Source: Paraphysoderma sedebokerense (taxonomy: Eukaryota; Blastocladiomycota; Physodermatomycetes; Physodermatales; Physodermataceae). Taken from it: a stretch of DNA of 64,000 nt. The stretch's first letter is position 1. Each line of letters begins with the position of its first letter. The translations under genes and the position numbers were made by a program. The stretch is taken from positions 1 through 64,000 of the forward strand of contig JAHLJZ010000050.1 of the NCBI GenBank assembly GCA_025602915.1, written 5' to 3'. The notes under the pieces are model-generated. The model saw only the letters and a list, made by a program, of their open reading frames with translations, did not search any database and was not told the origin of the DNA. Shown here in pieces: positions 250 to 62,375 of this stretch.

Positions 250-3200
250 CGACTTAAAGTTAACATTCGAAAGCGTATCGAATTCAGGAACTTTAATTTT
301 CGATTTATCGTCAATCAAGAAGATAGATCCATTTTCGAATCCAAAATTCATAGAAGAGTTTGGTGACCCGGGGATAAAATTAGACGAAACCTAAATCGAA
401 ACCCAAAATCAGAATCAATATGTTAGGTCTACCTACATCCTGACTTTTCAAAAATCATGAATAAAACAATACGGTGGATAAAACATACGTTAATGCCGTC
501 AAAAGCCCACACAGTTTGCATTTGAGATCCCATAGGTGAATAAGTAAACGACACATCACGAAACAAGATCAACGAATTCGTGAATTGAGTGGTTGAATCT
601 ACACCCTGATCCTAACATTCATTAACAATCCACAATCCACAATCCACACAAAATCAGTAAACTCTGAAAATCCAAACACCGAGAAAACAAATAAGAATCG
701 ACGAACCGTAGCCGTTGGACCAGCAAAAAAAGCAATTAAATCCGACCAAACTTGATCTTGAACTGCATATCTCACGACATTTTTATCAAACACCATCGTG
801 ACATTGTTCTCTGTAACTTTCACTTCTTTATCGTAACTAGATAAATAAGTCAATTGTAGGTTCAAATTTTGCCTTGGTTGCAACGGATAAAACGAGGACG
901 AAGGAGAAACCGAAGAAGGACGGTGAAGCGGGGATTGGGAATGAAAGTGTGAAAAAAGTGAAGAAACGATGGTGATGGGGTGTTCGTGGGTGGTATCGAT
1001 GAGGGTTAAGTCACGGGTGGAAAGGTGAGTGTACATCGTTGGCTAGAACACAAAGGAATATAAAAAAGGGGTTAAATCACGACGGATAACTACATCGAGG
1101 AGAGGATAGATACCGAAGAATCATATCCGTATATCATTGAAATACCCATATCGTCCATGGATAATGTATATTTTCTATCATGACCTTGCACTTTTGAATC
1201 CGGTTGAACCAATACCACGGATGCTACAAGTGCCGCCAAAACAGTCAAAATTTTGTTATCGCTTAATACGTTCAAAATACTAAACATACCTTCTTCAACG
1301 TTACACACAACCGTCATAAAACAATTCACCCCTTTCTTTTCTCTTTGGTTTCTTCGTTTTTGTTGTTCATGTCGAGGAAGTAACAATCGTTCATTATAAG
1401 GTTGAGATTCAAACACCACACTGTCACCACCAGTACCACTGAACGCGTCAGTGGTGTTCCCGCTCTCGGGGTCGCTTTCTTCTTCGTCCGAGTCACGACA
1501 TAAATGAAACGTATCGGTGTTTTTGGCGTCGGGGTGAAGTGTTGATGAAGGAGATGGAGTAGGGTACAACATTTTTGGTGAAAATTTGGTGAATGAATTT
1601 GAGAGTTGTTGAATTGTAGAATAAATTGAGGGAGTGAGTTGAATGACGACTTTAGGAAGACTTGTCGTGACGACGTAATTCTGCGTAAATAAAGATACAC
1701 CAGGTTAATTTCTCGCCTAATTTTTTTTTTCAAAAACCCAGACCAAAACAAAGTACAAGAAACCAAACACAAACCGATCGTGTCCAACAACTTCTCACAA
1801 ACCCAGCCACATCTTTTCCCAATCCACTCACCCTCCCGATCCACCCATCACCAATTTGCACTTCTTCATCCACTTCGGCATCTACACCAACCCTCGTTTT
1901 TGCGCCACTTTCGAACCCACTGTTCCATATTCCCGGGAACTTTTCACCAGAGTGGACTTCTCGGTCTCGGTCTCTGTCACGATGAAAATCAATGTACACG
2001 CTGTCCATCATTCCGGCTGGTAACGTGAAAGCAGTTTGTTGAATAGATTTTGTTTCGAGTGTACTAGACGGTTTCGAGGAGGAAGGAAATGATAATTTGA
2101 TGGTGGGATTCCGAGCAGAGGAGGAGGAAGTCGAAGAGGATGAAGCAGACGGATGGATGGTAAGAAATGAAGAGACGGTCGTGGCTAAAGAATCAAAAGA
2201 ACAAATCAGAACAATGGAAATTGGAGAGACAAAAGCAGAAACTCTGAACGCACAATCTTCTGGTAACAAGAATGCATGGCAACTTTCCCATTCCATCGTG
2301 ATTCCAGGCTCGTTAACACGTTTTTCCTGTTGATTTAAAGGGTCAATCGAATCCGATGCAGCAGTTGAAACAGGTGACGACGACGACGCATTCAATATTT
2401 CGGGTTTCCAAAAATCAATGGCTAGCAGTTCGGGATGCAAATTTGTAGGTCTACATAACCAACAAAAGGTTAAACCAACAAAGAAAGACGCAAAACTTCA
2501 AAATAAAAGTAAAAAAGAACGTACGACGCGTCATCGTCCACCACCATGGGTACCCCAACCCAAACTCTAACCAAATCACAATTCACTTTCCATTTCGTGT
2601 CACCCTTTTCTCCGTCTACTCTATTCCCATCTGCAGTTCCAGTACCCAACAAATCCCCCTCCACGTCATCCAAAAGACTATCCTCCATTCTCTCACTGTC
2701 AGTATCCGCCTCTCCTTCTTCTTCCCACATTCTTGAAAACTTTAATTCTCGTTCTTCGAGTCTTGATTTCAACAAAGACAAAGACGACAAAGAAGGGGGA
2801 AACGGGTATACTAATTTCTCTAGCCGATCTAGTAATCGTAGATCCATAAACAACAAGACCGGTAACATAGTGACAACGAATGGTGGGTCGTTGACTGTTG
2901 TTTCGTTTTGTGTGGAAGTAAGGCGTCGAGAGGCAGAAGGCGAGTAAGATATCCGGATGTCGTCGTTGGCTCCTTTGAATGCACTTTTTAGATTCATTTT
3001 CGGTGAAATCGGAGAGTGAAGAGACTGGGTGGGGTTGATGAATCCCATGGGTTGGAGGATACTTCCTGTCCCACTAAAAGCTCCCGCTTCAGGGGGTGAT
3101 AATGGTCCTGATGGATGAAAGGATTTAAGCGAGCTGACGAATTCTCCCACGGGATTTTGAGATTTCAATTCAACGTGAAATCGTTTCAAAAGAGAGGAGG

Positions 3201-5381
3201 ATTCAAAGGTGTCGGGAATGAAAGTAGGGAAGAGCGTAGACGGGTTGTAAGAATTCAAGATGGTAGGTGCGAATGTCAAGATAGGCGCGTATTGCGAGGT
3301 AGGGGTCGAGGAGGATAAATGCGATGGGTGCGAGTGAATGTACTCGTGTATCCTAAACTTTGAGATGGATGCGTCTACTGAGGGAGAAGGGCGAGAAGAC
3401 TGAGGGGAGGAGGAGATGTATTTGAGGACGGTATTATGGATTGAGATTCGAAGATGATTATGGTGAAGGTATGATGATTCGGGTATAAAGGGCTCATATA
3501 ATTTTTGCGTCGGTTGAGGTTGTTGTTGCTGCGAGGGAGAGTTGGGATGCGCAGCGGAAGTGACAAGAAAAAATTGTCGATAGAATTGGGAACGCGAAGC
3601 CAAATGAGATTGCAGCGACACAGGCGACGGGTTATTGTGAGTTAAATCTTCAAATAAAAAGAGTGAAAAGTTGACAAGGTTGAATCGCAATCGGAGACTC
3701 GTCCATTCAGTTTCATTTGGATGTTGATTTTCTAAAGGAGGGCCAGACGTTGAATGGAACGACACTGAGGATTCTGGAGCATAGGAGTAGACTGAGGATT
3801 GCCCAAACATGACGGAACGAGACGTCGCAAAAGTTGTAGTGGATTCAGAGGACATGTCAAAGAATTTGTCTGATGGCGAGACATCCGAGTCGGAATCATA
3901 AAGTTGAGAAGGCTGAGATTCGGTTTGACCTACTGTACTCGAGTCCGGATTTGGATGTTTGGAGGGGGAGCTGCTCCCGCTCGGGGAGGGCCAAGACTGG
4001 TTTATCACTTCCCACAGTTCAGAGAGAACTTTGAATTCTAAAGGGGTGACCACTCCACACATGTCGTTTATGACGAAATCCACTTCGTAATGCGACGATT
4101 TCCCAATGGTGTCGCTCTTTAAATCGTATATATCTTCCTCGTCGCTGTCACTGTCGTCAGTGCCCGACGTTGAAGCGTGCTTGGATTCGTTTCCAAATTT
4201 GATTCTTATCCAGTTTTCTGTCGATTCCGATACAGATAATACAATGGGACTCGACGTAGACGGAGGTGGAAGTTTGGAGAGATTGTAGACGTCATCGTCG
4301 TTCAAGTCTGCCGAGTCTGACGCCGACGTGTCTTTATGAGGGGAGGTTTGTTGATTCCATTGGTGTATTCGAACGTTAAGGGAAGAGATACGAATGAGTT
4401 TGATTGTTTCTATTGGGGGGAGGATAGTGGAAAACGCTAGGGAATCTTGAACGGAACCAGAGACAGAGGAAGACATGGTGGAGGCGGGCGTTTCGTCTAC
4501 GTAGGAGAGATAAGGTATCTGGATTTCTGTAAAAGTGGTATTCGTTGGTGTAGGTGAAGGCGAGGCGGCGTTGTGGGACAGGGAGACGTCGACTTGATGT
4601 TTGATGCGGACGACGGTGTTTTTGGCGGTGATTCTTATTTTAGACATGATTTTGTCAATCAAGGTTGCCAGGACTTGGATGCCGTCCATGCTAGAGGCAT
4701 CGCCGTCCGGGGCGTCCTGCGAGGACGGGGCTGTGAACACGATGGAGTCAGTCATGTCTGGTTTGTCGGATTCGGATGAGGAGATTGAATCGTCATCGGC
4801 GTGGAATCCTTCGGTTCTGATGAATTTGTCGGCGAGATGGATAGAGGAAGAGAGGATTTCTTTGTGTCTGAGTCGGGGGCTAAGTTCCTGCTCCTTTTTG
4901 GGGGCGTCCTTTAGAGGGACGATTGTGAGGACAAAGTCTTGAATTTCCAATGTGCAGTTGCCGTTCCATATGTCGACCCAGGGGATGGTGACTGTGATTG
5001 AGCCGAGGCGACCGTCGATGATTTCAAAGGGGACGGCGGGATGTTGGTTGATCTGAGAGGGTGGGAGGGAGCCGGAGCCGTCACCGCCGGCGAGGAGTTC
5101 GTTCAAGACGAGGACATTGAGATCCAAATCCCGCAGAGTGACAGAGCCGCTGCCGAGTTGCACGTCGAGGTTGTTGAGGTCAATTTCTGAGGCGAGGAAC
5201 TGACCGATGGCTCTCTGCAGGACAAACTTGAACAAGCGGCGTTGGAGAGTGGAGGGGATGTGCCAGCCTAGATAGAGAGGGTAGTTAGTAGTGGGTAGTG
5301 AGTAGAGAGTGAGTGGGTGAGTAGAGAGTGGGAGGGGGTAGTAGGGAATAGATAGATACCAGAGAAGGGCCATTTGATCAT
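1..5381 (-). CDS. ATG2: ATG2, autophagy lipid-transfer protein (3' part beyond left edge)
   Basis: ATG2 is a rod-shaped bridge protein that moves phospholipid from the ER to the growing phagophore, working with ATG9 and ATG18. Exons on the minus strand: 5360..5381, 2525..5267, 1832..2450, 1114..1680, 707..1042, 489..611, 250..390, with all phases closing; about 1517 residues are visible and the rest lies off the left edge. The start at 5381 gives MIKWPFSGWHIPSTLQRRL, the chorein-type N-terminus, followed by FVLQRAIGQFLASEIDLNNL and SGSVTLRDLDLNV, typical of ATG2. Later exons carry KVVIQLTPSIYSTIQQ, LFRDVSFTYSPMG and GSIFLIDDKSKIKVPEF, also ATG2-like. Starting at 5373 instead would read through intron 1 and break the chorein motif. 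The middle of exon 2 is Ser/Pro/Asp-rich and probably disordered. VPS13 is the related alternative, but order and motifs favour ATG2. Confidence 0.9.
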
Positions 5382-5735
5382 ACTTGGGGCTGGGGGTGGG
5401 CGTGGCAGTAAGTAGAGTAGTGAGTAGTAGAGTAGTGAGTAGTGAGTAGTAGTGAGTAGTGAGTAGTGAGTAGAGAGGGAATCAGCGGAATAGAATACAG
5501 AGCAGTGCAGGTGGAGTAGAGTAGAATAGGGAACGAGTGCCCATTAGTGCACAGTGGCAGCGAGTAGCGAGTCACGCTGTCACGGGATCACGCTTGCAGT
5601 GCGTTCTGTTCCTTTGATTCCACTCACTCTGTCCACTGCTCACCACTACTATCTACCACTACCACTACACCATGCTGTAAGTACTCTTCTACTCCACTCC
5701 ACTCCACTCCACTCCACTCACTACTCACTACCACC
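5270..5735. repeat. GAGTAGT/ACTCACT-type microsatellite across the ATG2-XPD divergent promoter
   Basis: Degenerate tandem copies of a 5-7 nt GTAGTGA/GAGTA unit occur in ATG2 intron 1 (about 5280-5345) and in the spacer (about 5405-5475). The reverse-complement form, ACTCC/ACTCACT, is in XPD intron 1 (about 5690-5735). The spacer between the two start codons (5382-5671) is only 290 nt and must hold both promoters. No TATA box is obvious. Confidence 0.7.
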
Positions 5736-9927: not shown

Positions 9928-11292
9928 CTAATCGTTACTTAAAGCCACACAGGCGCTTAGTTCCCCACAGAGAAAGGAGAGTTGTAGCCTTAAATCAATT
10001 GATTTTTTTTCCGCCAATTTCAAATTAAACTCTTTAGATTTCATGACACCCCAGAGATACTTTACCTCTTTCCCAAACACACCGACCTCCAAATCGGGTT
10101 CTACATTTCCATTGACCCCGGGTGATTTAAACCTACGTGTACTTTTCACCTGATACAAAGCTAAATCACCAAACCAAGAATGAATTTTAGTTCTAACGGA
10201 TTCGTATCTGATGACTTGATTTTCGATTAACAGTGAATACAAATACGGGATTTCAAGGGTCGCGTAGGTGAATGGTAAATTAGGGTAATATTGGGATCGT
10301 AGTGTAGTCAAGTTGGCTTTTGGTTGGGAAATAGTATGACGGTGAGGGGTAGATGGGAGACTATGATATTTGAATTCGAGTTTTTGTAGGTACGTTTCTA
10401 TTAGTGAGAGTTTACAAGTTTCTTGGACGGATAGGTATTGGAATCCTAGAGCGATGAATCGGTCTGGAGTGTCGTAATGTTGGGGTGGAATGTATCCGTT
10501 TAACATGATTTGGTTACATGAAAGAGAAATAGATTTACTGGCGGAACAAAATTTACAAATATCAATGACATTGTCGATGTTGTTTAACATCATTCGAATC
10601 GTGTCAGTGGGGATGGAATCCGGATTTAATGGTGGTGTCTTGGAAGCTGTACGTTTGTTTGACCAAATTTGATGGAGGAGTGAAAACAAGTAAGATCTAG
10701 GAGAACTTTGACTTGGATTTTGAATCGTAATGATAGTTGAAACCGGTACCACGAAATTCGGTAAAATAATCCAATGTTCATTGTCCTCTTGGTAATAAGA
10801 AAACACTAAAAGATATTGACCAGCTTCTAAAAACCACGGCGGCGTAAACTCAATACTGTATTCTTTATCACGTAAATATTGAAACCGTTTAACTATCGAT
10901 CCCTCGTATATATATTTCGGTATCCCCAATAAATCAGCCGTCACTTGAACCCCATTTTCCCAAGTTCTACGTTCCATTCGAAACAACGAAACCGTTAAAG
11001 GTAATCCATACGAAAATTTATGTCCCGTTCGAAACGCGATTTGGACAGGCGTTTCGTGGGTCCATTTGTTGGATGAAATCCCGGCTTTAACGATATAATT
11101 GGATGAGGATTTACATATGACTTTATCGGGACAGGTATTGAGTGATGCTGGATCGTCACGTGCAAATCCTAAAAGCGTCAAGAGAGGCCAATTTCGTTCG
11201 GATACTTGACGAACTTGTACCGAAATGTTTTGTAATAATTCGCTATTAACTTTTGTGAGAGTAACGAGTAAAATGAAGATGTAGAACTTCAT
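9928..11292 (-). CDS. Unrecognised secreted protein, single exon
   Basis: I do not recognise the family. The chosen start at 11292 gives a clean signal peptide (MKFYIFILLVTLTKVNS, cleavage near NS-EL). An in-frame start at 11325 would put 11 residues before it. The mature chain of about 437 residues has no further membrane segment. Cys pairs are visible (LNTCPDKVIC; DICKFC), as are several potential N-glycosylation sites (QNIS, AN-L-T) and many aromatic residues, consistent with an extracellular beta-rich protein. A Ser/Thr/Pro stretch lies near residue 210. The gene is intronless, unlike its neighbours. A TATA-like run (11388-11396) lies 60-100 nt upstream on its strand. It could be a cell-wall or host-contact protein, but nothing in the sequence fixes a role. 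Confidence 0.65.
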   Translation of the reverse strand: MKFYIFILLVTLTKVNSELLQNISVQVRQVSERNWPLLTLLGFARDDPASLNTCPDKVICKSSSNYIVKAGISSNKWTHETPVQIAFRTGHKFSYGLPLTVSLFRMERRTWENGVQVTADLLGIPKYIYEGSIVKRFQYLRDKEYSIEFTPPWFLEAGQYLLVFSYYQEDNEHWIILPNFVVPVSTIITIQNPSQSSPRSYLFSLLHQIWSNKRTASKTPPLNPDSIPTDTIRMMLNNIDNVIDICKFCSASKSISLSCNQIMLNGYIPPQHYDTPDRFIALGFQYLSVQETCKLSLIETYLQKLEFKYHSLPSTPHRHTISQPKANLTTLRSQYYPNLPFTYATLEIPYLYSLLIENQVIRYESVRTKIHSWFGDLALYQVKSTRRFKSPGVNGNVEPDLEVGVFGKEVKYLWGVMKSKEFNLKLAEKKSIDLRLQLSFLCGELSACVALSND

Positions 11293-11387
11293 GTTGAGAG
11301 TCCCACACAAAGCCTCAAACATCACCGAGTGTCTTGGGGAGGCGAATAATTACCGACGGTTAGAAACATCCGAGGTGGATGGTCTAG

Positions 11388-20297: not shown

Positions 20298-28005
<7,708 letters not shown>

Positions 28006-36253: not shown

Positions 36254-38230
36254 CTATGCGGTTTCGTGCACTTTTCTCGTATTCTCATCAAGTCCCTCAA
36301 TTCCCACAGTATCGACGGTCGACATTTGATACGATTTTAGTCCTTCTTTTGACTTGATCTCATCTCCAGATTCAGATGCGGGTTCCGGTGATAAACTAGA
36401 GTCGTGATAGGAAGTTGAAATAGAATTCATGGGTACATCGTTTATGTTTGCTGCCACTTCTTGAGGAGTTTGTTCGATTGGAGCGGACACTGGTTGCAAT
36501 TGATCAGGCTCTTGGTTACCCTCAGCTTCAGATCTGGAGACCAAGACTGTTGAATCAGAAATGTTGAATGCTGAGGAAGAAGGAATGTATTCCTTTCGAA
36601 GTGATGACTGTACTCTGTTTTCATTTGGTTTCGGTTGGGTTGCAGAGGAGAGATCATTGGTAGACATCTCTATAGTATTGTCGGAGTCTTTTGATTCGAC
36701 GGTTACTGCGTTTTCCATAGAGTCCGAGTTGTCATGACTGGCACTTACTTCGTTTGGATTATGAAACGGACTACTGGTCCTACTGATGACTTCGTAATCA
36801 CCTGTGATTGAACTCGTCGCAGAGGCAGAAACGAGAGGGGATGAGCGAGGAGATGATTGCGGAGAAGATGAGGAAGACGATGCCTGTTGCGAATCTTTAT
36901 GCGGAGAATCCACGAGAACGGTTGATTCCGAAATTGATGCAGAATTAAAAGTATCGGTGCTCGAAGCTTGTGCCGTTGGCGTATTTACTCTGCTAGAGGT
37001 GGACGAGGTAATAGAGGAAGAGAGCTCTCTAATCTTTGGTTCATCAGTCAATGATTCAAGACTATCCGCTCTGCTGGCGTTTTCGCTGTTTCCTTCGCTG
37101 TTCGGCATGAGTTGCCAAATGATTCTTCTCATAGCCCCAAATCCTTCTTCATTCCCACTTCCGGTGCCTCTTTCATTGACTCGCTCCTTTCCTTTTTGAC
37201 GCTGGCGATTTGGGATCACTCCCGTTTCAAGAAAAGAGTTGTAGTCACTTTCTTCGATAATTTGGATGCCAGTAATTTTGTCCCATAAAGTTCTACCGTG
37301 ATCAAGACCTGATTGGAGAGCCACTATGCAATAAACAAAGGCAGAAAACGAAGCGACAGAGGATAATGGTCCGAGAGAAGACGAGATGAATCGAAAGGTG
37401 TTGTGTAGTAACAAAGAGACGGTATCCACCAAATAAGGATTCTTCGTCATAACAGCATTTGACTTTGGAAATTTATCTTCCTCATTTTCGGAAGATAACT
37501 CGATGTAACCGGGGCGAAGTCTGTTGGCTAATTTCGTGCTGATAATCACTTGTCCGGCCAAGTATCTACCGGGACTCGGTAGACCCCAATGACACCCCCA
37601 GAAATCTCTACCGCACCAAACCAACGCTACCACCACACTTTTCAGTCCAAACGGTTTAAATGGGGACGCCACAATGGTAGCAATCGCGGAATCAATCATC
37701 CAAGCGAACACTCGTTTCGTGAATGAAGCCGGTGGAAACGGTAATGTATCGTCTGATGAGGATGAAGATCGGGACGTCGTTCCGGTGGAAGAGGTGAGGT
37801 GATTTTCCAATCGGTGGACACACGAAGACAAGACATTGGTGGTCAATCCGACTATTGATTCGGAGGTGACGAAAAGGTCCCGAGAGATTTGGTCGGTATC
37901 GATGAGAGGAGTGCTGGAGCCGGCAGGGGTGGATGTTGAAGATGAAGAATCAGATGAAATAGAACGGGAGGTTGAAGCGGCTTGGACGGGTTGGGAGAAC
38001 GGAAGCCTTTTGAAGGGCTCATAGATTCTGCGACGATGGGTCCTGAAGGGAGGAGTTTCAGCGGAAGCGACGAGATTGAGTACTTTCACCCTGACATCGT
38101 CCCAAAGGAGAGAGGCAAAGACGGTTAGTGCGATCACACCTGACATTCTCTGTTGTAGGATGTCAGAATGTGGAAGATGAGCGCAGACACCGACACAAGC
38201 ACAAGCAGAAGAACGGCTGAGCATTTTCAA
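36254..38230 (-). CDS. RDD-family membrane protein with long disordered tail
   Basis: Intronless, 658 residues. Residues 168-326 match the RDD pattern: FTKRVFAWMIDSAIATIV (Arg and Asp of the first signature), a middle SPGRYLAGQVII, and the closing HGRTLWDKITGIQII, which corresponds to the R-x-x-x-D-x-x-x-G-hydrophobic end of RDD domains. RDD domains are multi-helix membrane domains, best known in bacteria, with unclear transport function. An additional hydrophobic segment lies near the N-terminus (GVIALTVFASLLW). Residues about 340-658 are Ser/Thr/Glu-rich and look disordered. The first ATG (38230) is followed by internal Met codons at residues 3 and 29, so the true start may be later; starting at Met29 would place the hydrophobic segment at the very N-terminus. 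Confidence 0.65.
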   Translation of the reverse strand: MKMLSRSSACACVGVCAHLPHSDILQQRMSGVIALTVFASLLWDDVRVKVLNLVASAETPPFRTHRRRIYEPFKRLPFSQPVQAASTSRSISSDSSSSTSTPAGSSTPLIDTDQISRDLFVTSESIVGLTTNVLSSCVHRLENHLTSSTGTTSRSSSSSDDTLPFPPASFTKRVFAWMIDSAIATIVASPFKPFGLKSVVVALVWCGRDFWGCHWGLPSPGRYLAGQVIISTKLANRLRPGYIELSSENEEDKFPKSNAVMTKNPYLVDTVSLLLHNTFRFISSSLGPLSSVASFSAFVYCIVALQSGLDHGRTLWDKITGIQIIEESDYNSFLETGVIPNRQRQKGKERVNERGTGSGNEEGFGAMRRIIWQLMPNSEGNSENASRADSLESLTDEPKIRELSSSITSSTSSRVNTPTAQASSTDTFNSASISESTVLVDSPHKDSQQASSSSSSPQSSPRSSPLVSASATSSITGDYEVISRTSSPFHNPNEVSASHDNSDSMENAVTVESKDSDNTIEMSTNDLSSATQPKPNENRVQSSLRKEYIPSSSAFNISDSTVLVSRSEAEGNQEPDQLQPVSAPIEQTPQEVAANINDVPMNSISTSYHDSSLSPEPASESGDEIKSKEGLKSYQMSTVDTVGIEGLDENTRKVHETA

Positions 38231-38560
38231 CGGGAGAAGTCATGGGCCACCAGAGTCACCATGGCGACAGATCAGCTGGCGAGAGAAGAGGACAACGGAG
38301 ACTGAGCATATGTGAGCGGACGATGGGTTCCACCATCAATTAAAGAAGAGTGAAAGCAAGCCGTGGGACTAAGAATGTATATTCAAAGATACAAAATACA
38401 TCCATGATGTAGATGTGCGGAAGTGGAGACGGGCCGAGGCGATGGAACGATGCGAGCGCTCCTCTGCTGAATCTAAATTGGCGTCACTTTCTGCGCTCCT
38501 CTGGTCCCCAACCATTCCACTTCTGTCCTCTCTCGCAACCATCCTTTATCCCCTGTGCGA
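38231..38560. other. Divergent promoter (RDD / CDGSH genes)
   Basis: 330 nt between opposite start codons; no TATA box recognised. Several ATGs occur in the leader of the CDGSH gene but none lies in the frame of its conserved motif. Confidence 0.4.
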
Positions 38561-49886: not shown

Positions 49887-50269
49887 TCTGGGTACTGCTT
49901 TGTTTATACACGGGTAGCCAAATAAGATTTTGGTCCATTAAACTTTTGGGTAGTTGTAGACAATATTTATATAATGACAATATTAGTTATTCAATTCCTA
50001 AGGTTCACAATCAAGGGGCATAACACCTATAATAGAAAACTTCAATTGAGCCAATATTGTGGCATTTCTGTCTCGGAATATCGTTTGCTGGAATAACTGC
50101 ATTATTGTCGATATGGGTGTAATTTCCGCACTTCGACTTTTATTTCGCGGCGCGTTTCCGAACCTCTGAACTCAGCTTTAAGTCTTGGATACAGACTGAA
50201 TCTCAGCAGCGATCGAAAAATACTTATTGCCGGCATCATTAATTTATCAATGCTGATCTTCTATTAGAA
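49887..50269. other. Intergenic YARS2 to LRR gene
   Basis: 3' flank then promoter of tandem genes, AT-rich. No feature recognised. Confidence 0.45.
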
Positions 50270-52165
50270 ATGGAGTTGGATAAGCTTAGTGGTTGCCGGT
50301 CCGGCCAACAAATCGCCTCTTCTTCGATTTCTCACGATTCCACATCTACCGAAAGCACCTCACATCCCTCCAAAAAGGAAAGCGAGGAGCGAATTGATTA
50401 CGAAAGACTGGGACTTGTGTTCTCTCGGATTCTCCCAACTGCTCGCTGTCGTCCTCGAACTATTCTAGGTGCACAACAACCACGATTTCATGATTCGACT
50501 GCGCTGCTTCATCATGATACGTCCATTGCGGTACCGGCAGTGTCAAATGCACAGTCTAGACAGTTCCCACGCCCGATCGAACGCCGAAAAGGTGGTTGCA
50601 TTCCGTCTCTAAGATCTCTATGTTGTAGAGTGATAGTGGAAAAAATAGACTGGATTGACAGAGAATGTTTCAGTGATTCTGGGGACTTGCCATGGTGCCC
50701 TGTTGGACAAATGATCTTTGAGGTCGCCAAAACAATGTGGAGGGTATTGCCATTTTATGTCGTCGAAGTCTTGGTATCGGCGTATTTATGTTTGGACGAA
50801 GCTGAAAGAAACGGTGGTATGAGTTCAGATTCATCGGAAGAGTTGAAGACTTACACTCGACTTCGCATTCGGCGTAACTTACTCGATGAAACCAAGCTAT
50901 CAAGAATTTCCCAAATTCATTTTCTAACATTCCTCGATCTTTCAAAAACAAATCTATCCGATGCGTCACTAATGCACCTGAATAAGTTTAGATACCTAAA
51001 CTATCTCAATCTATCTGGGAATGAAGACATCACCGATTATGGAGTCAGCCATTTAGTTCGACCTCATAGTATCAACAAGGAAAATGGCCTACGAAGTTTA
51101 AAAGTTCTGGATCTAAGTAAGACCCGGATCGGAATAGTAAGCGTGGACAAGTATTTGCCTTCTCTTCCCACTTTGCAAGTCGTGAATGTTAGTTACACAA
51201 AGGTGGTTTGGCATAACAAGTTGGAGAACTGGAATAAGAAACCAGGGTTTACTTTCAATTGGGGTGAGAATACCCAAAAAAACGAAGATGATAAAATCAT
51301 CGGTGCTATCGCCCCGGAAATTTATGATTTAGTGAGACCATGTTCGACATTTCAGAGGAGTCGAATAATCGATTCTTTCGCCAATCCACTCTACCAGTAT
51401 GTCATGCAGGATGAAATGAGTGATGATGTCGAGAGATGGAGTCTCTTTTATTCGAAAATTGAAAGAATGGCAGAAATCGCCGAAAGATACGACGCTAATG
51501 AACAATTAGGCTCCCAAAAAGTAGTACTATACAGAGATGTGGGTAAAACAGGAGCTGCATCAGTGGGGACCGACACAAGTATACGCAATCGTTCGTCGGC
51601 GGCAGTGAAACCGGTGCGAATTGTCTCTAAGAATTCCTCAATGAACGATTTGCTTGCCCAATATGATCCATTTTCTTCGAGCATTCGGTCATCTGACTCT
51701 ACCTTCATCCATCCCTCCATCCCTCCCTCTGATCTTGGTAAATCTTCCGCTCGGGCACCCAACCCATTTGCGCGCGCTATGACGAAGCCTCTTTCTTCAG
51801 CAAAATCAAAGTCAAATATTCATCCCCCAACTTCACTCCATCCGCTACATTCTAAACAACGTAAATTGGACAAACCTAGTTTTCCCTTTCGTAGCCGCGG
51901 ATTCAACAAATCGGATGTGAGTTTGATACGGAGGAGTCCGACCCAAGGACAACCGATTAATAAAATTCGTAAACCTAATCCGTTTCTATCCAGTGTTAAT
52001 ACATCAGCCAACTCCAATATTCATGAAAATAGACTTATAAAACCGTATGCGGTTGTGAACACGTTATCAAGTAGTAAGGAGGACAGGCAACGTAGAAATG
52101 ATCAAGGGAATGAGACGAGATCCCTAAGCCGAAATGGACTAAGCTTATCTGATGTATTAAAATAA
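50270..52165 (+). CDS. Leucine-rich-repeat protein of unknown role
   Basis: Intronless, 631 residues. About residues 217-311 form three to four LRR-type units: FLDLSKTNLSDASLMHL, YLNLSGNEDITDYGVSHL, VLDLSKTRIG and VVNVSYTKV, the cysteine-lacking LxxLxLxxT/N pattern. The N-terminal region has Cys/Trp residues (CIPSLRSLCC; PWCPVGQMIF) but no signal peptide. The C-terminal half (about 430-631) is Ser/Pro/Lys/Arg-rich and probably disordered, with repeated NPFxR/S elements (PNPFARAM, PNPFLSSV). Looks cytosolic or nuclear, an adaptor-like protein by architecture only. It is longer than its surroundings suggest for a single exon. Confidence 0.7.
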   Translation: MELDKLSGCRSGQQIASSSISHDSTSTESTSHPSKKESEERIDYERLGLVFSRILPTARCRPRTILGAQQPRFHDSTALLHHDTSIAVPAVSNAQSRQFPRPIERRKGGCIPSLRSLCCRVIVEKIDWIDRECFSDSGDLPWCPVGQMIFEVAKTMWRVLPFYVVEVLVSAYLCLDEAERNGGMSSDSSEELKTYTRLRIRRNLLDETKLSRISQIHFLTFLDLSKTNLSDASLMHLNKFRYLNYLNLSGNEDITDYGVSHLVRPHSINKENGLRSLKVLDLSKTRIGIVSVDKYLPSLPTLQVVNVSYTKVVWHNKLENWNKKPGFTFNWGENTQKNEDDKIIGAIAPEIYDLVRPCSTFQRSRIIDSFANPLYQYVMQDEMSDDVERWSLFYSKIERMAEIAERYDANEQLGSQKVVLYRDVGKTGAASVGTDTSIRNRSSAAVKPVRIVSKNSSMNDLLAQYDPFSSSIRSSDSTFIHPSIPPSDLGKSSARAPNPFARAMTKPLSSAKSKSNIHPPTSLHPLHSKQRKLDKPSFPFRSRGFNKSDVSLIRRSPTQGQPINKIRKPNPFLSSVNTSANSNIHENRLIKPYAVVNTLSSSKEDRQRRNDQGNETRSLSRNGLSLSDVLK

Positions 52166-52503: not shown

Positions 52504-55500
52504 TTATTCCTTAGGCGGTAAACGATCCACCGTGCGATTATATAAGAACTTGGAAGCTGTCATCATTGGCAGCCCGGCGGTACTTTCAATTAAAACAGCA
52601 TTCGATATTTCAAGTGGTCGCGTTGGCGTACTCTCTGTGTCCTTCATCTGCTTTTCATTTTTCGCGTTCTTTAGGCTCGAACTCAAGGATAGTGAAGATG
52701 TAGAGGATTGTTTCCTAGTCTTCATTCCAGTCTTGACCTCATACATGATCGCGAGCACGGCTGCACCGAAGAATACCGATATTATCGCAATTAGGATAGC
52801 GGAAACCACTTGCTGATGTGATTCTGCTGGAAATTGTTCGGTATACAGGAAATTACCGACTGCCAAAATCGCGATGGCCGAGAATATAGAGCATACTTCA
52901 AGGTAATGAAGCGATTTGTAGCGGTAAGGTTGCTGCCGCCGGTACACCTGATAGGAACCGATAAGCACGCAAATCGTCAAAGTAATTTGAAGCGTAACAT
53001 ATCTGCGATGCAGAAATCAGACATATCGCAAGTTAGCTTTTCGCGTCCATCCGGACAGGATTTTGAGAACTCACTTTGTGAAAAACATATTAATGCAAAT
53101 AACGATGAATTTTTGAAGGATCTGCAAGACGATGAAATATTGTCGCTCAGCTTTGATAAAACTGTAATCAAAATTGAATACTGCCTCTGCCAGTTTACGC
53201 AGTCTTGTCCAAGTCGGTCCGCTCCAACGTCGCTGAAAGAGGAGGAAAAATAAAATGGAAAAATAAAGCGGGATTCCGAACGCGTAGAATCTATTATCAA
53301 CGTTAGCTGATAAGACAAGGACTTTGAAAACGGAAATGGGTAGCTTACAAAGCCGCAGGTAAAACATAACTCAGGTTACTATACCACAAATCGTCAAAGC
53401 ATTTGACGCTACTATCTTCGTCTGCGTAAATATGGTACCGTTAATATTTTACGTATCTTATTACAACAGAAAGCAAGGCATACCAAGATAGAAAGTGTCG
53501 TTGACCTCTTGCGTACAATCAAAAAGGGCCAAAGATTTTGTAGCGACAATGACATACACTACCGATAATAGGGCATTCATTGCTCGGGTAGCAATCAACA
53601 AATTTTCGGCTTGACTTTGTTTTAACGCAACAAGGTTAATTACTGGGTTGTATCTTATTCGAACTCTTTTCGCCAACCATCTACAGGCATATATAATGGA
53701 TGATCGAATGGGCCAAAGATGTATCAAGGTCCATAGAATAAGGGGCAAAGATAAAAAGAGGGGAAGGGCGAGTGTGACTTTCATTTTAAAGTAGTAATTA
53801 CTGGCGGAGTCAGTGATAAAACATTCGGGACTTGCGAGCTCAATATTAAGATTGGCAATGGATATCGTATTCATGAATTGCTGAAATTCGGGAGTCCTAG
53901 GCATCTAATTAGATGATGTCACTTCGCTTAAAGCTAATTCGTCTTCCTACCATTTCATTTTAATTTCGCTGAGCACAAGAATCATCTGCGTAAAATTTAA
54001 GCATATCGTGGCGACACCAAGTCTACAAAATGTTTAGGTTACTGTCGCTGATACTTTCAGAACATAATAGGCGGTTACTTACATCCAACCGTTTGCAACG
54101 TATCTTAGCACTAGCGAAATTAGAGCGAAGGCACCAAAGAGCAATAAAATAATAAGCGTTATTAATACACCGATGTTGTTGGTGCATTTCCGACAATCTC
54201 CGCCGAGTCTGTAGAAATTTTGACTGCATTCTCCGCAGCGAGTTCCGCTAAATTCCATTGATTAACGTAGCCCATAGGTTGATGTTAAATTAAAGTATAG
54301 CCATACGTATATCCTTCCGCGCACACTGTCGCATTGGAAAATCCAGGGCAGGCAGACGCTGGCTCACAAGGTAGAAATACCATGCTATCTAGAGCTTTCC
54401 AATATCCTATTACGATATTCAAGACATTTGAGAAAATGAACAGCTAAATTGAATTGTCATGGTGAGGCTATACGATACCTCTCGCGGCGTAAGGTTCAAA
54501 CAAGCCATTGAAACTTGAACAAAAAATAACAGTTAGCTGGGGTTTACAAGAGGCTCTTGGGTGCGGGTATCTACAAACCTACAGATTGCTCCGACTGGAC
54601 AAGTTTCTGTATGTTACAAGCGCATGCAGGGACATATTAGTACACTGATTCAATCTGCCATCGCTACTTTGCAAACTTACCACATATGCTCACTGATGAT
54701 TTGTTGAAGATATTCAAATAAAGCGGAGCGCATGACACAACAAATGTAACGTTGCAGAAATTCGATGTCAGGTTATCTGCCCCTATGGCTTGGTATAGGT
54801 AATTCCCAACAAATGGTCTACATTGAGGTGAGTGAGGAAGTCATCGCTTGACTTACTGATTCTGAGATGCAACATTACCTTCCTCTTGTAATATTTGCGA
54901 TAAGTCGCACTCGATTTTCTCGATACCGAGTTGTTGTATTGATTCGGTATGCCGGAATACTGCTATCTGCACTCATAAACATTGCGTCTTGGGGGAACTC
55001 GAAAAATCGAAATACTAGGCTGAAGCAAATGTCAGCATCGGAAAGAAATCTGCAACGAACTAATATGAAAATACGCACCCGTCAGCGATAGGATCACCGT
55101 TATAAATCTTTATGTAGTCTGAGTTGATTTCAATTCTATCATTACACGGGATTTGTGGTATGACCGTCACATTAACAAAGCCTGGAACTGAAGGCAAGTT
55201 TTCCTTATGGTCTGTATGAAGGGTGGGTTATGAGTGACGGCCCAAAAACTAACCTAACCGAGAGCGGGAAATAAATTACGAACCATAGCAATCATAAGAG
55301 AATCCGAATCTTCCGTGATACTTGGGGGCCGGTTGATAATAGAGACGGCCCCACAAATCGTTGACTACACCATTTTCAAAGGCAGGACCAACCACAAAAT
55401 TTTGATCTGCGAAAGAATCATTTGGAGTAGCTAACCGAACACCTCTAAATATCGCTTGATTCAATGTGCCAAATGCAGTGTTGAAGCCATCGACTATTCG

Positions 55501-56866
55501 ATATGTTATTATCTCTGCTGGTCGTCTAACGTAGGAACACAATAGCCTGATCGGTACTCGCATTGCCTGTGTGGTTCCGACAGTGATATTAAATATACCT
55601 GGCGGACCGATGGGAATGCGGACAGTTTTCTCAGCCCAGGGATTGTTCGAGAGCCGATAGTTCACTGACCCAACAAGTTGAGTAGCAAGTGACTGCGGGA
55701 ATGCTGGGACAAAAGTAACGGTCGTCCCATTGACGGTTTGAGCCAATGCCGAAATCATGTTCCCGTTATACAGGAGGACACCACCCCGAATTCCCGTGAT
55801 ATTTGATGTCACGTCGCTGCAATTCCCGCTGCATAAGGATAACGGTACAGAAACATTTCTGTCGGTATAAACAAAGAAAACCTGTCTAACCACGATGCTC
55901 ACGACAGTTGTTATCGAAGCTATCCAAGTTGTTATTAGATTTGAATTCTCATGATCCAGGCTCAGTGCAGTGGCAGGCAATAAAAGCAGAACTTACGCTG
56001 CGAAAACCTGTCAAAAACTGACCATAGAAGTCAAGATGAATAATGTCGTCCAGGAAACAGGGAAAATTTAACTACATTACCTTGAAACTCGAATGTATCG
56101 TTTCCCCAGTACTCTAAGTTCGGGACATAAACTGCAGTTCCGGATACGTCTCTGACGAGCCTGCTGGAGATGCTAGAATCTTCAATGCGGGCCCATTGAA
56201 AAGTTCTGCTTTGTAGCAAAACGCCGTTAGATGGAAATTGGGTGATATAGTATCTGAAAGTTTCGTTTGCGTCGGGATCGGTTGCAAGAAGTTGGATTCC
56301 AGCACCGTCTGTATTCTGATCCAGAGTGATTGTTTGAGGTGGAGCTGTTGGTGGCGAATTTGGGATTCCTGTTCTGAAGACTCCAGGGGCGAAATGGCGG
56401 AGACCAGAGAAAAAAACAGTGACATTGAAAGTGTCACTTGACGGTAATATGTTTTCTGAGAGTGAGCTTTGTTGTATCGAAAGAATTGGGTCAATTGCTA
56501 GCGCCGGCTATGTAAGTTCAGAATACCTCGCTGTTGCATACCAATTTATATATCCGACAAAGAATTCTGGACTCGGGCATGGCTTATAAATGTTTGATCC
56601 ACTAACAAATTCAACAGAAAGACCTGATACCAGAGACGTCTGAAATTGAATTGAAAACGAAAAAGGAGTTAACCCGTTGTTTCTCTATTTCTGTAATCGT
56701 GCATGAGGCGGCTCGCACATACCCCTTCTATTAACACATATCCGCTTGACCCCGGAATACTGTCAGGATAGAATCTTCGTAACCTCGGAGCTTGTGCTGT
56801 CACAAAGGGAAGGATGCTGAGAGTAATGACTGCGCATATTGCCCACGATATAGGAATTATCAGCAT
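52504..56866 (-). CDS. Receptor-like multipass membrane protein with Cys-rich module, 17 exons
   Basis: My reconstruction gives 17 exons (minus strand) with closed phases: 56723..56866, 56542..56639, 56081..56466, 55997..56017, 55284..55919, 55079..55211, 54879..55049, 54681..54817, 54579..54606, 54479..54513, 54307..54406, 54083..54247, 53951..54022, 53484..53896, 53349..53421, 53075..53290, 52504..53002; 1108 residues. It starts with a signal peptide (MLIIPISWAICAVITLSILP...TAQA). The ectodomain (about 26-575) has beta-sandwich-like, N-glycosylated segments (YVPNLEYWGNDTFEFQVFD; FVYTDRNVSVPLSLCSGN). A Cys-rich module follows (TCPVGAICSFNGLF; PCEPASACPGF; RCGECSQNFYRLGGDCRKC), then about eight helices (first near 654-678) and a Ser-rich tail. 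The Cys module then multipass domain resembles protist and basal fungal surface receptors. No ligand or function is known to me. Confidence 0.75.
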
Positions 56867-58050
56867 TGGTGATATTGGTAAACCGATGGTGCCGGAATAT
56901 TGAATACTGGTGTCGAATGACCAGAAAGCAATAACCCAACAACTGTTTATCTTGAATGCAGATAAATACAATCTTGTTTGTACTGATTGTGGTTTAAGGA
57001 GTCCTAATCTGTCTCCTGCCTCATCGTCATTACTACACATTCATCCGATTTTACCTCGCATTTTGACGACCGCAAATGCCAAGCGCGTCGTCTTGTTCAA
57101 ATTCAATCTTGCTTCTCTTCTTTCCTTCTTCTTGTTCAGCTTCATTCTTCTCAGTAGATTTTTAATGGATATAACATGCGTGCAGTTGTAACTCTTGAGC
57201 ATTGTAAAATACAATTTGAGTATATTGTTCGCCTTCCTCACTGTTCTTTATCACTCTATACGTTATAACGGCCCACAGGAAGTCGCCTAAACCCGAAGAA
57301 AATGTCGGAAAAGTCAACTGACCACCCTGACGTGGGTGGGCGAGGCGCGAGCAAGGAGGTCGAAAGAATATCTCAAAAAAATCAATGAGTTGCAATATTA
57401 TTGTCCATATTTCTATCTCTTGCCATTTCCAAGATAATCCCCACTTGAGCAGCTGTCCATAAAACTCCATACATCATGCAGCAGTTGTGAGTTGCTCTCC
57501 CGGCAGACTTGATTCCCTTTAGGCAGGCTGCAATTTATGTATAGATTTCCGCAGCTACGTTGCATTCTCTTTTCTACTAACTTTCTATAAATTCAACCTT
57601 GGCAGATGTGAATGGAGCGCCGTCAATACAACCGCCTGCCACAGAGGAAATTTAAACGCGGTTGCATCCAGCATCTCCAGCATTGAACTGTGGGAGTCCA
57701 CAGGAACCGGCTCAATTAACCTGATATAGTCTTCAAGATCCTTTTCAATTTAATTTTGAGAGCTTTAATTGACTCATACTTTGGCAAGACTTGTCTTCGC
57801 CGTTAAATTGCTTGATAGTGTGAAAAAACCTGCTTTATGGCCCGCCTGGGCGAAAAGTACCGTCGCAAAATTCATTCACGATTTCACAGACTTTTTCAGG
57901 AAAAGAGTCTGATATCACCGTTATTGTTGCTGTACTTCTTCATTCAATTCCATATACAAATATTGCTGCTTGACTATTGATCATTCAGCTTACATCATCC
58001 ACATAGGAATATTCTACCAACCCCGCATTATTGTCCAACGAGACATTCCA
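56867..58050. other. 1.2 kb divergent promoter region of two surface-protein genes
   Basis: Between the receptor-like gene (-) and the mucin-like gene (+). Short open frames (for example 57162-57470 on minus) have no recognised features. In-frame codons upstream of the receptor start (to 57040) exist, but they would bury the signal peptide. Confidence 0.4.
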
Positions 58051-58800
58051 ATGAAAGTCAGAAAGTTACTCCTCGTCGCAATCATTTGCTTATTTCCGCC
58101 TTATATTACTAAAGCTCAAGATGTAACTATCATTTTACCCCCTCTTTCAACCCCACCAATCGATGCTACATCTATCGTAGTACCACCTCCACCTCCAGCG
58201 AGTACGACGGAACAACCTCCAACTACAACTGAGACTCCCCCTCCACCACCTACCACTTCCGTTCCGGCAAATGATGTTACTTCTTCCGCTGCAGTTACAA
58301 CTTCATCTTCCGGTGCGGCTACATCAAACAGACCGAATGAACAAATAACATCGCCCACCTCTGGTACACAAGAACCCACATCAGATTCAAACCCACGCGA
58401 AACAGATAGAACCAAAGTACTGACATTTGACAAGGATAATGACAAGAAACCTGAACAATCTTCAATGATCATTCCAATAAGTATTGTTGTTGCGGTATCT
58501 GTCGTTGCCTTTATCGGTATCGGCACCGTCATTGCTGTCAGACGCAAGCGAGCTAGACAAGAACAAATCGAGAATGAACGCAGAGCAAGATTGTACGGTG
58601 GCAATCATTCGACTGGCAGTTCATCTGCTTCTTTGCGTCCTAGTAATAATGGTAATGATTTAAGTCAGGTAGTGATTGGTGAAGGTGCAAACAGTATTGC
58701 TTCGGGCAGGGGAACATACGAAACTAATCACTCCAGAAGGCGAACAGGTCAGCAAGGACATCATGTTGGTCCAAATCCTGGAGCTAGAAGGATGGGATAG
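58051..58800 (+). CDS. Mucin-like single-pass membrane protein
   Basis: Intronless, 249 residues from the preferred start at 58051 (an upstream in-frame ATG at 57970 would precede the signal peptide by 27 residues). Signal peptide MKVRKLLLVAIICLFPP..KAQ; a Thr/Ser/Pro-rich ectodomain of about 120 residues with proline runs (VVPPPPPASTTEQPPTT), likely O-glycosylated; one transmembrane helix (SMIIPISIVVAVSVVAFIG then IGTVIAV) followed by a basic stop-transfer RRKRARQ; and a cytoplasmic tail of about 75 residues rich in Gly/Ser/Arg. The layout matches fungal wall-stress sensors (WSC/MID type) but no WSC domain is present, so a sensor or adhesin role is only suggested. Confidence 0.7.
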   Translation: MKVRKLLLVAIICLFPPYITKAQDVTIILPPLSTPPIDATSIVVPPPPPASTTEQPPTTTETPPPPPTTSVPANDVTSSAAVTTSSSGAATSNRPNEQITSPTSGTQEPTSDSNPRETDRTKVLTFDKDNDKKPEQSSMIIPISIVVAVSVVAFIGIGTVIAVRRKRARQEQIENERRARLYGGNHSTGSSSASLRPSNNGNDLSQVVIGEGANSIASGRGTYETNHSRRRTGQQGHHVGPNPGARRMG

Positions 58801-60608: not shown

Positions 60609-62375
60609 ATGGCTGTTCTTCATTCAAACCAACCCACGACCTTCTCGAGGTCGTTCATCATCAACTACATGCAAAAATTCAAATATTCCCCAGATGTCGA
60701 CACTCCTGCTTATATTATCATCCACAATAAAGTTTATGACATCAAAGACTTGGTCACTCAGCACCCCGGTGGTGCGGTCATTTTAACTCACATCGGTAGA
60801 GATGGCACTGGTATGTGTGAATGTTTTCTGTCGTTCTTTCGTGACCCGGATGAAAATTTCGTTTGAAAAATTTAATTATCGGATGTAAATTTTTTTTGAA
60901 AATCTCTGTTTCCCTCAGGGGCACTTGTTAGTTCAAAAATTTTTCATATATTACACGATACGAAATGTCAGTTTTTGTTGAAACGTATTACTAACCCATT
61001 TTTTGAATCGTGTTCCTTGTTTGTTTTTCAATGACTACTTTGTCCCATAGACGCTTTTGATGCTTTCCACCCTGAAAGTACAGCTGGAGTGCTAGCTGAT
61101 TATTACGTCGGAGATATTGTCGATGATGAAAAACATATTGAGCAGTCTGGTACGTTCTTCCCGCTTTGGAAATCATTCTTATGTGCGGTAATCTCTGACG
61201 ATATATTCTCGGATTGTTCCCGCTATGATATTGCTTCTTCTCCCTGTCAGCATTTCCTGACGAAATTCGTAAACTCAAAGAAAAATTTGCCGATATGGGA
61301 TTATACGAGTCGAATAAATTATACTATGCAATGCTCATCCTGATCAACGTCTCCCTTGTTTCCCTTTCGTTGGCCTTACTCTTCCTCTTTCCGAACAATG
61401 TTCCCGTCGTTCTCGTCTCCGCATCGATTATGGGTCTGTTCTGGCAACAATGTGGTTGGCTTTCACATGATTTCCTTCATCACCAAGTATTCCGTAACCG
61501 TTTCTACAACGATTGTGTCGGCTATGTCGCTGGTGGATTGGCTCAAGGATTTTCTGTTTCCTGGTGGAAAGATAAACATAACACCCATCATGCCCAACCT
61601 AATGTGCACCAAGAAGATCCTGATATCGATACAATGCCACTCTTAGCCTGGTCCGAACACGCTTTAGAGTTATTCTCCGATTTTTCAAATGAAACTCTTG
61701 CTCGTTTCTTCGTCAATCACCAAGCTATTCTGTACTTCCCCATTCTTGCCATCGCTAGAGTCTCTTGGGCAATTCAATCCGCTCTTTTTGTTACCCCTTA
61801 CTGGCAAAAACTTGGCAAACCTCCAATCTCCATGCTTGAGCAATTGTCGGTCGCAATGCACTGGGTTTGGTATATCGGAGTATTGACTTATGCATTGTCG
61901 CCTGTCATGGTATTGGTATATTTTGCAACCAGTCAGATGGTGTGTGGATTGTTATTGGCAAGTGTTTTCAGCTTGAACCATAATGGTATGCCGATTATTG
62001 GTCATGATGAAGCAACAGAAATGGATTTCTATAGCAAACAAATTATTACTGGGCGCGATGTTTTCCCGAGTATTTTTGTGGATTGGTTTATGGGTGGCTT
62101 AAACTTTCAAATTGAACATCATGTATGTATTACTATCTGTTTTCGTCTTTGATAAACACCCACTCTAACATCATCTCCTTGCTCAGTTATTCCCCAACAT
62201 GCCTCGTCATTCCCTCCGAACAATTAAACCAATTATCCAAGACCTTTGTGAAAAGCATAACATTCCTCACCACAACACTTCATTTTGGGATGGCACAGTA
62301 GAAGTGCTGAGCAGATTAGAAGAAGTCAGCAAGATGAGCAGAAAAATGGCCAAGATGGCAAAGAAAGAGGAATAG
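60609..62375 (+). CDS. Front-end fatty acid desaturase with N-terminal cytochrome b5 (delta-6 type)
   Basis: A front-end acyl desaturase that inserts a double bond between an existing one and the carboxyl end, using electrons from its own cytochrome b5 domain in the ER membrane. Four exons with closed phases: 60609..60810, 61051..61149, 61251..62122, 62187..62375; 453 residues, as in mucoromycote delta-6 enzymes. Seen: heme motif HPGG near residue 53 with FHPES after it; the histidine boxes HDFLHH, HNTHH and QIEHH (Gln in the third box marks front-end enzymes); long hydrophobic helices between. The exon 3/4 join falls directly after QIEHH and continues LFPNMPRH, the conserved sequence. The tail is Lys-rich (KMSRKMAKMAKKEE). 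Delta-6 fatty acid versus delta-8 sphingolipid specificity cannot be told by eye. Confidence 0.9.

Follow-up and report, generated by a model that had tools for sequence, protein, structure and literature searches.

What kind of protein is encoded by the receptor-like gene at 56866-52504, on the minus strand of a 64,000-nt stretch of Paraphysoderma sedebokerense DNA (positions 1 to 64,000 of contig JAHLJZ010000050.1, assembly GCA_025602915.1; hereafter the window)? An earlier note, made from the sequence alone, had proposed a single gene specifying a signal peptide, a glycosylated ectodomain, a cysteine-rich module and a multipass membrane core, and had taken the product for a receptor-like protein of unrecognised function. 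Our analysis bears out the single gene, with exons 5-17 coinciding with a public protein and exons 1-4 backed by paralogs, and places it in a large multi-copy family of adhesion-type proteins with a common module and a common core, which is a new finding. The analysis shows directly how the gene is built, in what order its domains follow and which paralogs it has.

Spliced by hand, the coding region (52504..56866) closes 17 exons in phase, with GT-AG introns of 51-115 nt in the 17-exon form, into 1,090 amino acids (aa) with no internal stop and a single terminal stop codon at 52506-52504. Four variants at two junctions yield 16-17 exons and 1,074-1,099 aa; the exact product of 1,108 aa first proposed was not reproduced. 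Automatic splicing based on codon and splice-site scores did not recover the full model unaided: the unforced run ended after three exons, and forced runs regained many but not all of the exons, one setting giving the last four only. The procedure was dropped for hand splicing, as it cut the gene short or over-split it. Residues 263-1090 of the model are letter-identical to a public protein of the same species returned by protein search (P0001; BKA69DRAFT_1085893, 828 aa, named 'hypothetical protein'), and exons 5-17 are therefore independently annotated, through annotation rather than transcript evidence. The order of domains is putative signal peptide, a region read as IPT/TIG-like, Big_9/cadherin-like domain (residues 125-217), further ectodomain to about residue 550, cysteine module, core and tail, and 16 of the 20 N-glycosylation sequons fall in residues 27-640. 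Ectodomain sequence occupies exons 5 (55284..55881), 6 (55079..55211) and 7 (54879..55019), the latter two being the same in P0001, and ends in exon 8 (54681..54817), which is kept across paralogs.

Exons 1-4 lie outside the public model, which lacks the signal peptide and the first Ig-like domain and starts at an internal methionine of exon 5, its match beginning at 55758. Exon 1 (56723..56866) carries the start of the ectodomain and a putative signal peptide, judged by eye (residues 1 to ~26, MLIIPISWAICAVITLSILPFVTAQA). Exon 2 (56559..56639) is given in its longer variant, which similarity to paralogs favours (844.5 versus 826.3 summed bits over 16 models). Exon 3 (56081..56507) holds the cadherin/Ig-like domain, where paralogs match residues 96-218, and exon 4 (55997..56007) is a proposed micro-exon of 11 nt, the alternatives being to join exons 3 and 5 directly or to lengthen exon 5 (844.5 summed bits for the micro-exon, 846.0 and 834.8 for the alternatives). 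The need for either such a micro-exon or a weak site to join exon 3 to exon 5, together with the internal start of the public model, could be taken to mean that the locus comprises two genes or has been mis-modelled, with exons 1-4 foreign to a protein that starts at the methionine of exon 5. Such a protein, however, would have no recognisable signal peptide at its start, yet the predicted topology requires an outside N-terminus. Moreover, the alignment of paralog L048 with the model covers residues 1-163 and takes in the signal peptide (32% identity, E 2e-14), and 11 of the 24 paralog models, including L048, have a match inside residues 1-218 at E < 1e-6 (calculated for a set of 24 models) that lies upstream of the core in each. 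The paralog models were predicted by script with homology to P0001 as a guide, so that their N-terminal halves are ab initio, which lends the two-gene view some credit. Long alignments were also obtained with L042 and L056 (residues 12-562 and 60-561, respectively), but the window ectodomain, when cut at residue 530, found no match in that of L042 at E 1e-3, a further point for two genes, and hence we give the L042 alignment little weight. On the strength of the signal peptide, the L048 alignment and the 11 paralog matches the N-terminal 262 residues have been kept; the paralog alignments disfavour the two-gene alternative, and we regard two genes or a mis-modelled locus as very improbable. 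The public model P0001 itself looks truncated, its N-terminal exons missing.

Next to the membrane core, ten cysteines at residues 557-633 form a module (exons 9 to part of 12; 54184..54606) that resembles DUF7630 (PF24633). P0001 scores only 8.3 bits against this profile, far from the cut-off of 27. Four other loci of this genome, among them two nearly identical copies, exceed that cut-off. No paper in the literature searched names DUF7630. Three more distant relatives, L001 (C122), L005 (C26) and L007 (C74), combine DUF7630-type modules, over the cut-off only in L001, with a related membrane core.

The core itself (part of exon 12 to part of exon 17; 52735..54162, residues 641-1014) is followed by a predicted cytosolic C-terminal tail of 76 aa, first basic and then Ser-rich (residues 1015-1090; 52507..52734). 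Hydropathy averaged over 20 aligned cores gave 14 overlapping segments, which were read and merged by hand into nine helices instead of the 'about eight' anticipated. The charges of the intervening loops (K+R/D+E) are 7/0, 7/3 and 3/0 on the inside, where the first loop consists of two uncharged residues, and 2/4, 1/8 and 0/2 on the outside, with 4/0 at the start of the tail; since these fit such an arrangement, the core is read as nine helices with the N-terminus outside and the C-terminus inside. Cysteines 716, 818 and 836 of the predicted outer loops are conserved, and the paralogs have in common the motifs NFxQTI, WPPEF, NxNIELxSPEC, LALFDCTxExDGxxYLD, YVIGIPLYF, QLxQKL and KPYxYxSLNxLE. 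The receptor-like build of ectodomain, cysteine module and multipass core within one gene is supported.

A search of the 27-Mb genome with P0001 returned 102 exon-level matches, the window gene included, which fall into 47 clusters on 29 contigs; one cluster holds two genes, giving 48 loci with the window gene, a lower bound with 55 of 386 candidates scored. Some of these loci are duplicates: within C41 the locus at 110 kb shares 3,351 bases without a difference with that at 144 kb, the two loci of C27 agree almost throughout the ~3.0 kb aligned, and parts of C41 recur in C97. The pairs C13/C151 and C109/C117 and two C63 loci have equal scores, a likeness of score only. We estimate the family at about 40 distinct members. 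The search revealed no near-identical copy of the window gene, and the best identity to it among members, which share the cysteine module and the nine-helix core, is 46% (L038, on the same contig). From 20 fetched stretches 24 genes were modelled, of which two poor models were dropped and 22 aligned with P0001; removal of three further incomplete models (L038, L044 and L050) left the 20 sequences, P0001 included, of the membrane profile. In a tree of 21 cores, without L044 and L050, the window gene pairs with L038, some 100 kb away (support 87/86), and these two next group with L042 and the L046 pair (support 97/94).

Protein-database searches returned P0001 and P0002 as the sole family proteins. 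As paralogs of the same genome also went unreturned, the absence of the family from other organisms in these results is no evidence of its distribution. P0002 (653 aa) looks truncated, departing from the family reading frame past the third helix and missing the rest of the core. One pattern searched in viral contigs matched three stretches, none of them a relative, and among the matches listed no paper addressed the family in its title or the start of its abstract. As far as these searches show, the family was previously unnamed. The earlier view that no characterised family has the full layout also holds, as the whole model exceeds no Pfam cut-off and its public name is 'hypothetical protein'. 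With some 40 or more paralogs, however, it is not a lone gene. Nor is it wholly unplaced, since the consensus points to TRP (transient receptor potential)-like channels, the cysteine module to DUF7630 and the paralog ectodomains to cadherin, Ig and TIG domains.

Variation within the family falls mostly on the ectodomain. In the window protein the Big_9/cadherin-like match falls below its cut-off (E 9e-4, 20.5 versus 23.6 bits), and Pfam does not list TIG, which is over cut-off in paralog L038; from the alignment with L048 we infer that the first ectodomain region is IPT/TIG-like. Paralog ectodomains were scanned as 20 open reading frames, drawn from 18 of the 20 stretches: L038 and L040 supplied two each, and L041 and L050 supplied none. 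Half of these frames, from 10 stretches, exceed a curated Pfam cut-off; in nine the domain is cadherin-like, Big_9 or SibA-like Ig, and in the tenth (L038) it is TIG. Of eight pairs of close paralogs, six show lower identity in the ectodomain than in the core (ectodomain/core identities of 45/75, 62/97, 57/67, 64/68, 49/63 and 46/62%) and the other two do not (65/65 and 59/58%); a ninth close pair, the L046 pair, has no modelled ectodomain and stands outside the comparison. The window protein itself has 23% ectodomain identity over 94 residues to L038, against 47% in the core, 30% over 262 residues to L048, against 36%, and no ectodomain match to L042, against 38% in the core.

The tandem genes L040 and L041 (C41) offer a glimpse of how such a distribution may come about. 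Their DNA is 97-100% identical, introns included, over 1.5 kb (L040 1863-3362), but identity drops to 88% in the 294 bases that follow and to 61-72% from position 3657 onwards, in the upstream part, and protein alignment places the drop in or just before the cysteine module. The stretches compared were L040 1863-8241 and L041 782-7251, and the observation also takes in L017, L018 and L019; the ectodomains are about 65% alike. In the 3.8 kb fetched, C97 agrees fully with copy one across the core and with copy two across the ectodomain; it reads as their recombinant. Taken together, the pattern suggests that the core has undergone recombination or gene conversion, with the caveat that it may be an artefact of the assembly path, because C97 shares contig coordinates with C41 there. 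It would be bold, and in our view rather unlikely to prove right, to extend this to a general process of receptor-channel diversification in which tandem copies, each with its own ectodomain, keep a common nine-helix, TRP-like core near-constant by recombining or through gene conversion. If true, exchange at the core would pair new ectodomains with an invariant signalling part, and the resulting diversifying system would serve the recognition of algal hosts, bacteria or self.

The consensus of the 20 cores has PF06011 (the fungal TRP-like Pkd2/Flc family; profile length 426) as its top match (E 2.2e-5, 23.9 bits), consensus positions 105-386 running collinearly with profile positions 151-414, and the consensus of sub-clade A (seven cores) also ranks PF06011 first, in the same register (E 4.3e-4, 19.7 bits). 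Among aligned exon fragments, 5 of 34 match PF06011 weakly (best E 0.014), more than match the other families listed, and a paralog fragment found in the genome search (C93:61981-62370) does so at E 0.015. None of the reversed or shuffled controls matched PF06011 (0 of 6 scanned, out of 8 made, and 0 of 2 in the sub-clade test). Two distant relatives also help to bridge the paralog family and PF06011, to judge by their profile matches. In L001, a piece that lies about 800 bases downstream of the DUF7630 module, and seems to belong to one gene with it, narrowly exceeds the PF06011 cut-off (28.9 versus 28.5 bits; 26.3, under the cut-off, in the genome-wide search), and L001 matches the paralog family by hhalign at E 2.1e-4, the best of 20 shuffles reaching 0.055. 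In L005, with DUF7630 just under its cut-off, the match to the family is stronger (E 1.5e-7) and that to PF06011 weak (E 0.026, profile 227-394). L007 matches the paralog family as well (E 4.7e-8, small set).

Several results weigh against this relationship, or against the functional reading that builds on it. The family consensus stays under the curated cut-off of 28.5 bits, the consensus of sub-clade B (nine cores, the window gene among them; four of the 20 cores belong to neither sub-clade) has no PF06011 match, and neither P0001 nor four single cores (that of the window protein and three from paralogs) match the profile at E ≤ 10. With other, unrelated membrane families the controls attain E 8e-5 and 4e-4, and we therefore treat E-values as inflated for helix-rich sequences and put weight on register and coverage. 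L007 does not match PF06011; the family and the genome's own Flc-like gene (L058, partial) align at E 0.11, when the best of 20 shuffles attains 0.059; and no ML-like (TRP_N) domain was detected in the whole model (E up to 1) or in P0001 (E up to 10). An AlphaFold2 prediction from a two-sequence input had a confidence (pLDDT) of 34 and was left unused for fold search. Hence, membership in PF06011 is not established and the protein is not filed as a member, but we consider a remote TRP-like relationship of the core likely. The misses of the window protein and of sub-clade B could also be read as signs of a receptor or adhesin whose nine-helix core has a fold of its own and does not conduct, signalling through partners or the Ser-rich tail or merely anchoring the ectodomain. 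It would also suit such a protein that the core exceeds the cut-off of no Pfam family and that sequence searches of solved structures gave nothing relevant (one chance-level chain, E 0.8, in one search and none in another); the agreement in first rank and register between the whole-family and sub-clade A consensuses and the bridging loci L001 and L005 speak against it, and we hold this alternative to be unlikely, though the most serious one.

With these elements in place, we lean, by a modest degree, towards a plasma-membrane sensor of contact or ligand, belonging to a lineage-expanded family in which an adhesion ectodomain works a TRP-like core. A secreted, N-glycosylated stack of beta-sandwiches, IPT/TIG-like and then cadherin/Ig-like, would bind an outside partner, in the most plausible case a glycan or protein on the surface of an algal host, of a bacterium or of another fungal cell; the membrane-proximal ten-cysteine module would pass on force or a conformational change; and the nine-helix core, as a distant relative of the Pkd2/Flc channels, would respond, most likely through Ca2+ entry. 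Adhesion-type domains in the place of the ML-like domain would give a tethered, contact-gated or ligand-gated sensor. For the window protein, surface location, Ca2+ permeation, ligand and TRP relationship are all inferred. The TRP-like link cuts both ways, however, for it would also suit a secretory-pathway protein of divergent Flc/Pkd2 type that serves homeostasis, through the handling of Ca2+, lipid or wall precursors, and has no part in surface sensing. TrpR of Aspergillus nidulans, from the same Pfam family, is reported to reside in the Golgi and to act on Ca2+ balance and the cell wall (PMC8618638). Adhesion ectodomains, in some 40 or more copies and diverging from one another, fit outside sensing better, and a housekeeping role of this kind appears improbable.

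The case for a contact or ligand sensor gains interest from the biology of the organism. This blastocladiomycete fungus is a parasite of green algae and has been described as a pathogen with devastating effects on cultures of Haematococcus grown commercially. Its swarmers recognise algal cells, settle and encyst, and encystment has been attributed to 'parasite propagule receptors' that bind heat-resistant algal ligands, with mention of an earlier N-acetyllactosamine (LacNAc) proposal (PMC6446968). By this reasoning, the members of the window family would be natural candidates for the host-sensing receptors of P. sedebokerense, and a multi-copy adhesion-type family with nine helices supplies a concrete list of candidates and makes the host-receptor question testable. 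If the core is indeed TRP-like, a fungal TRP-like core would have been turned into a large family of sensors in an early-diverging fungal lineage. Duplications of TRP-CC have been reported in Neocallimastigomycota and Glomeromycotina (PMC8778642), a source in which the word Paraphysoderma does not appear.

Divergent from the receptor-like gene and upstream of it, a 295-aa open frame (57913-58797, plus strand) contains a Pro/Thr-rich stretch and, ahead of a basic stretch, a single hydrophobic segment; it looks like a single-pass surface protein of mucin type, with a sub-threshold TMEM154 match only. On the other side, a 640-aa open frame with leucine-rich repeats (50243-52162, plus strand) turns its 3' end towards that of the receptor-like gene. 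Also on the plus strand, domains of the splicing factor PRP8 extend over three long open frames, apparently of one gene (20844-28002), and a fatty acid desaturase lies at 61229-62149. Three open frames on the minus strand, of 1,002, 472 and 660 aa (2476-5481, 9934-11349 and 36260-38239), have no Pfam match at E 1e-3.

Comparison with known systems helps to delimit what is distinctive here. Adhesion G protein-coupled receptors, which have been reported from fungi (PMC3251606), likewise set an adhesion-type ectodomain over a multipass core, but this identity was rejected for the window protein, with its nine predicted helices instead of seven and no 7tm_2, GAIN or GPS match listed. The Pkd2/Flc channels (Pkd2 of S. 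pombe, the yeast Flc proteins and TrpR of Aspergillus) come closer, with an outside N-terminal part, a nine-helix core and a cytosolic tail, and the family consensus follows their profile over positions 151-414, below threshold. Unlike them, the window family has cadherin/Ig/TIG-like domains and the ten-cysteine module where the ML-like lipid-binding domain would be expected, outer loops in which PEC and FDC...C are conserved, and a copy number of about 40 or more, as opposed to the four PF06011 genes given for A. nidulans (PMC8618638). DUF7630 has a similar cysteine-rich pattern, GYxGxRCGxC...YRLGxxCxxC, and some paralogs are over or near its cut-off, whereas the window protein falls well short of it. 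Finally, the SibA-like and IPT/TIG recognition proteins, which are single-pass, share Ig_SibA or TIG domains with the ectodomains of the paralogs; in the family described here, by contrast, those domains sit on a nine-helix core.

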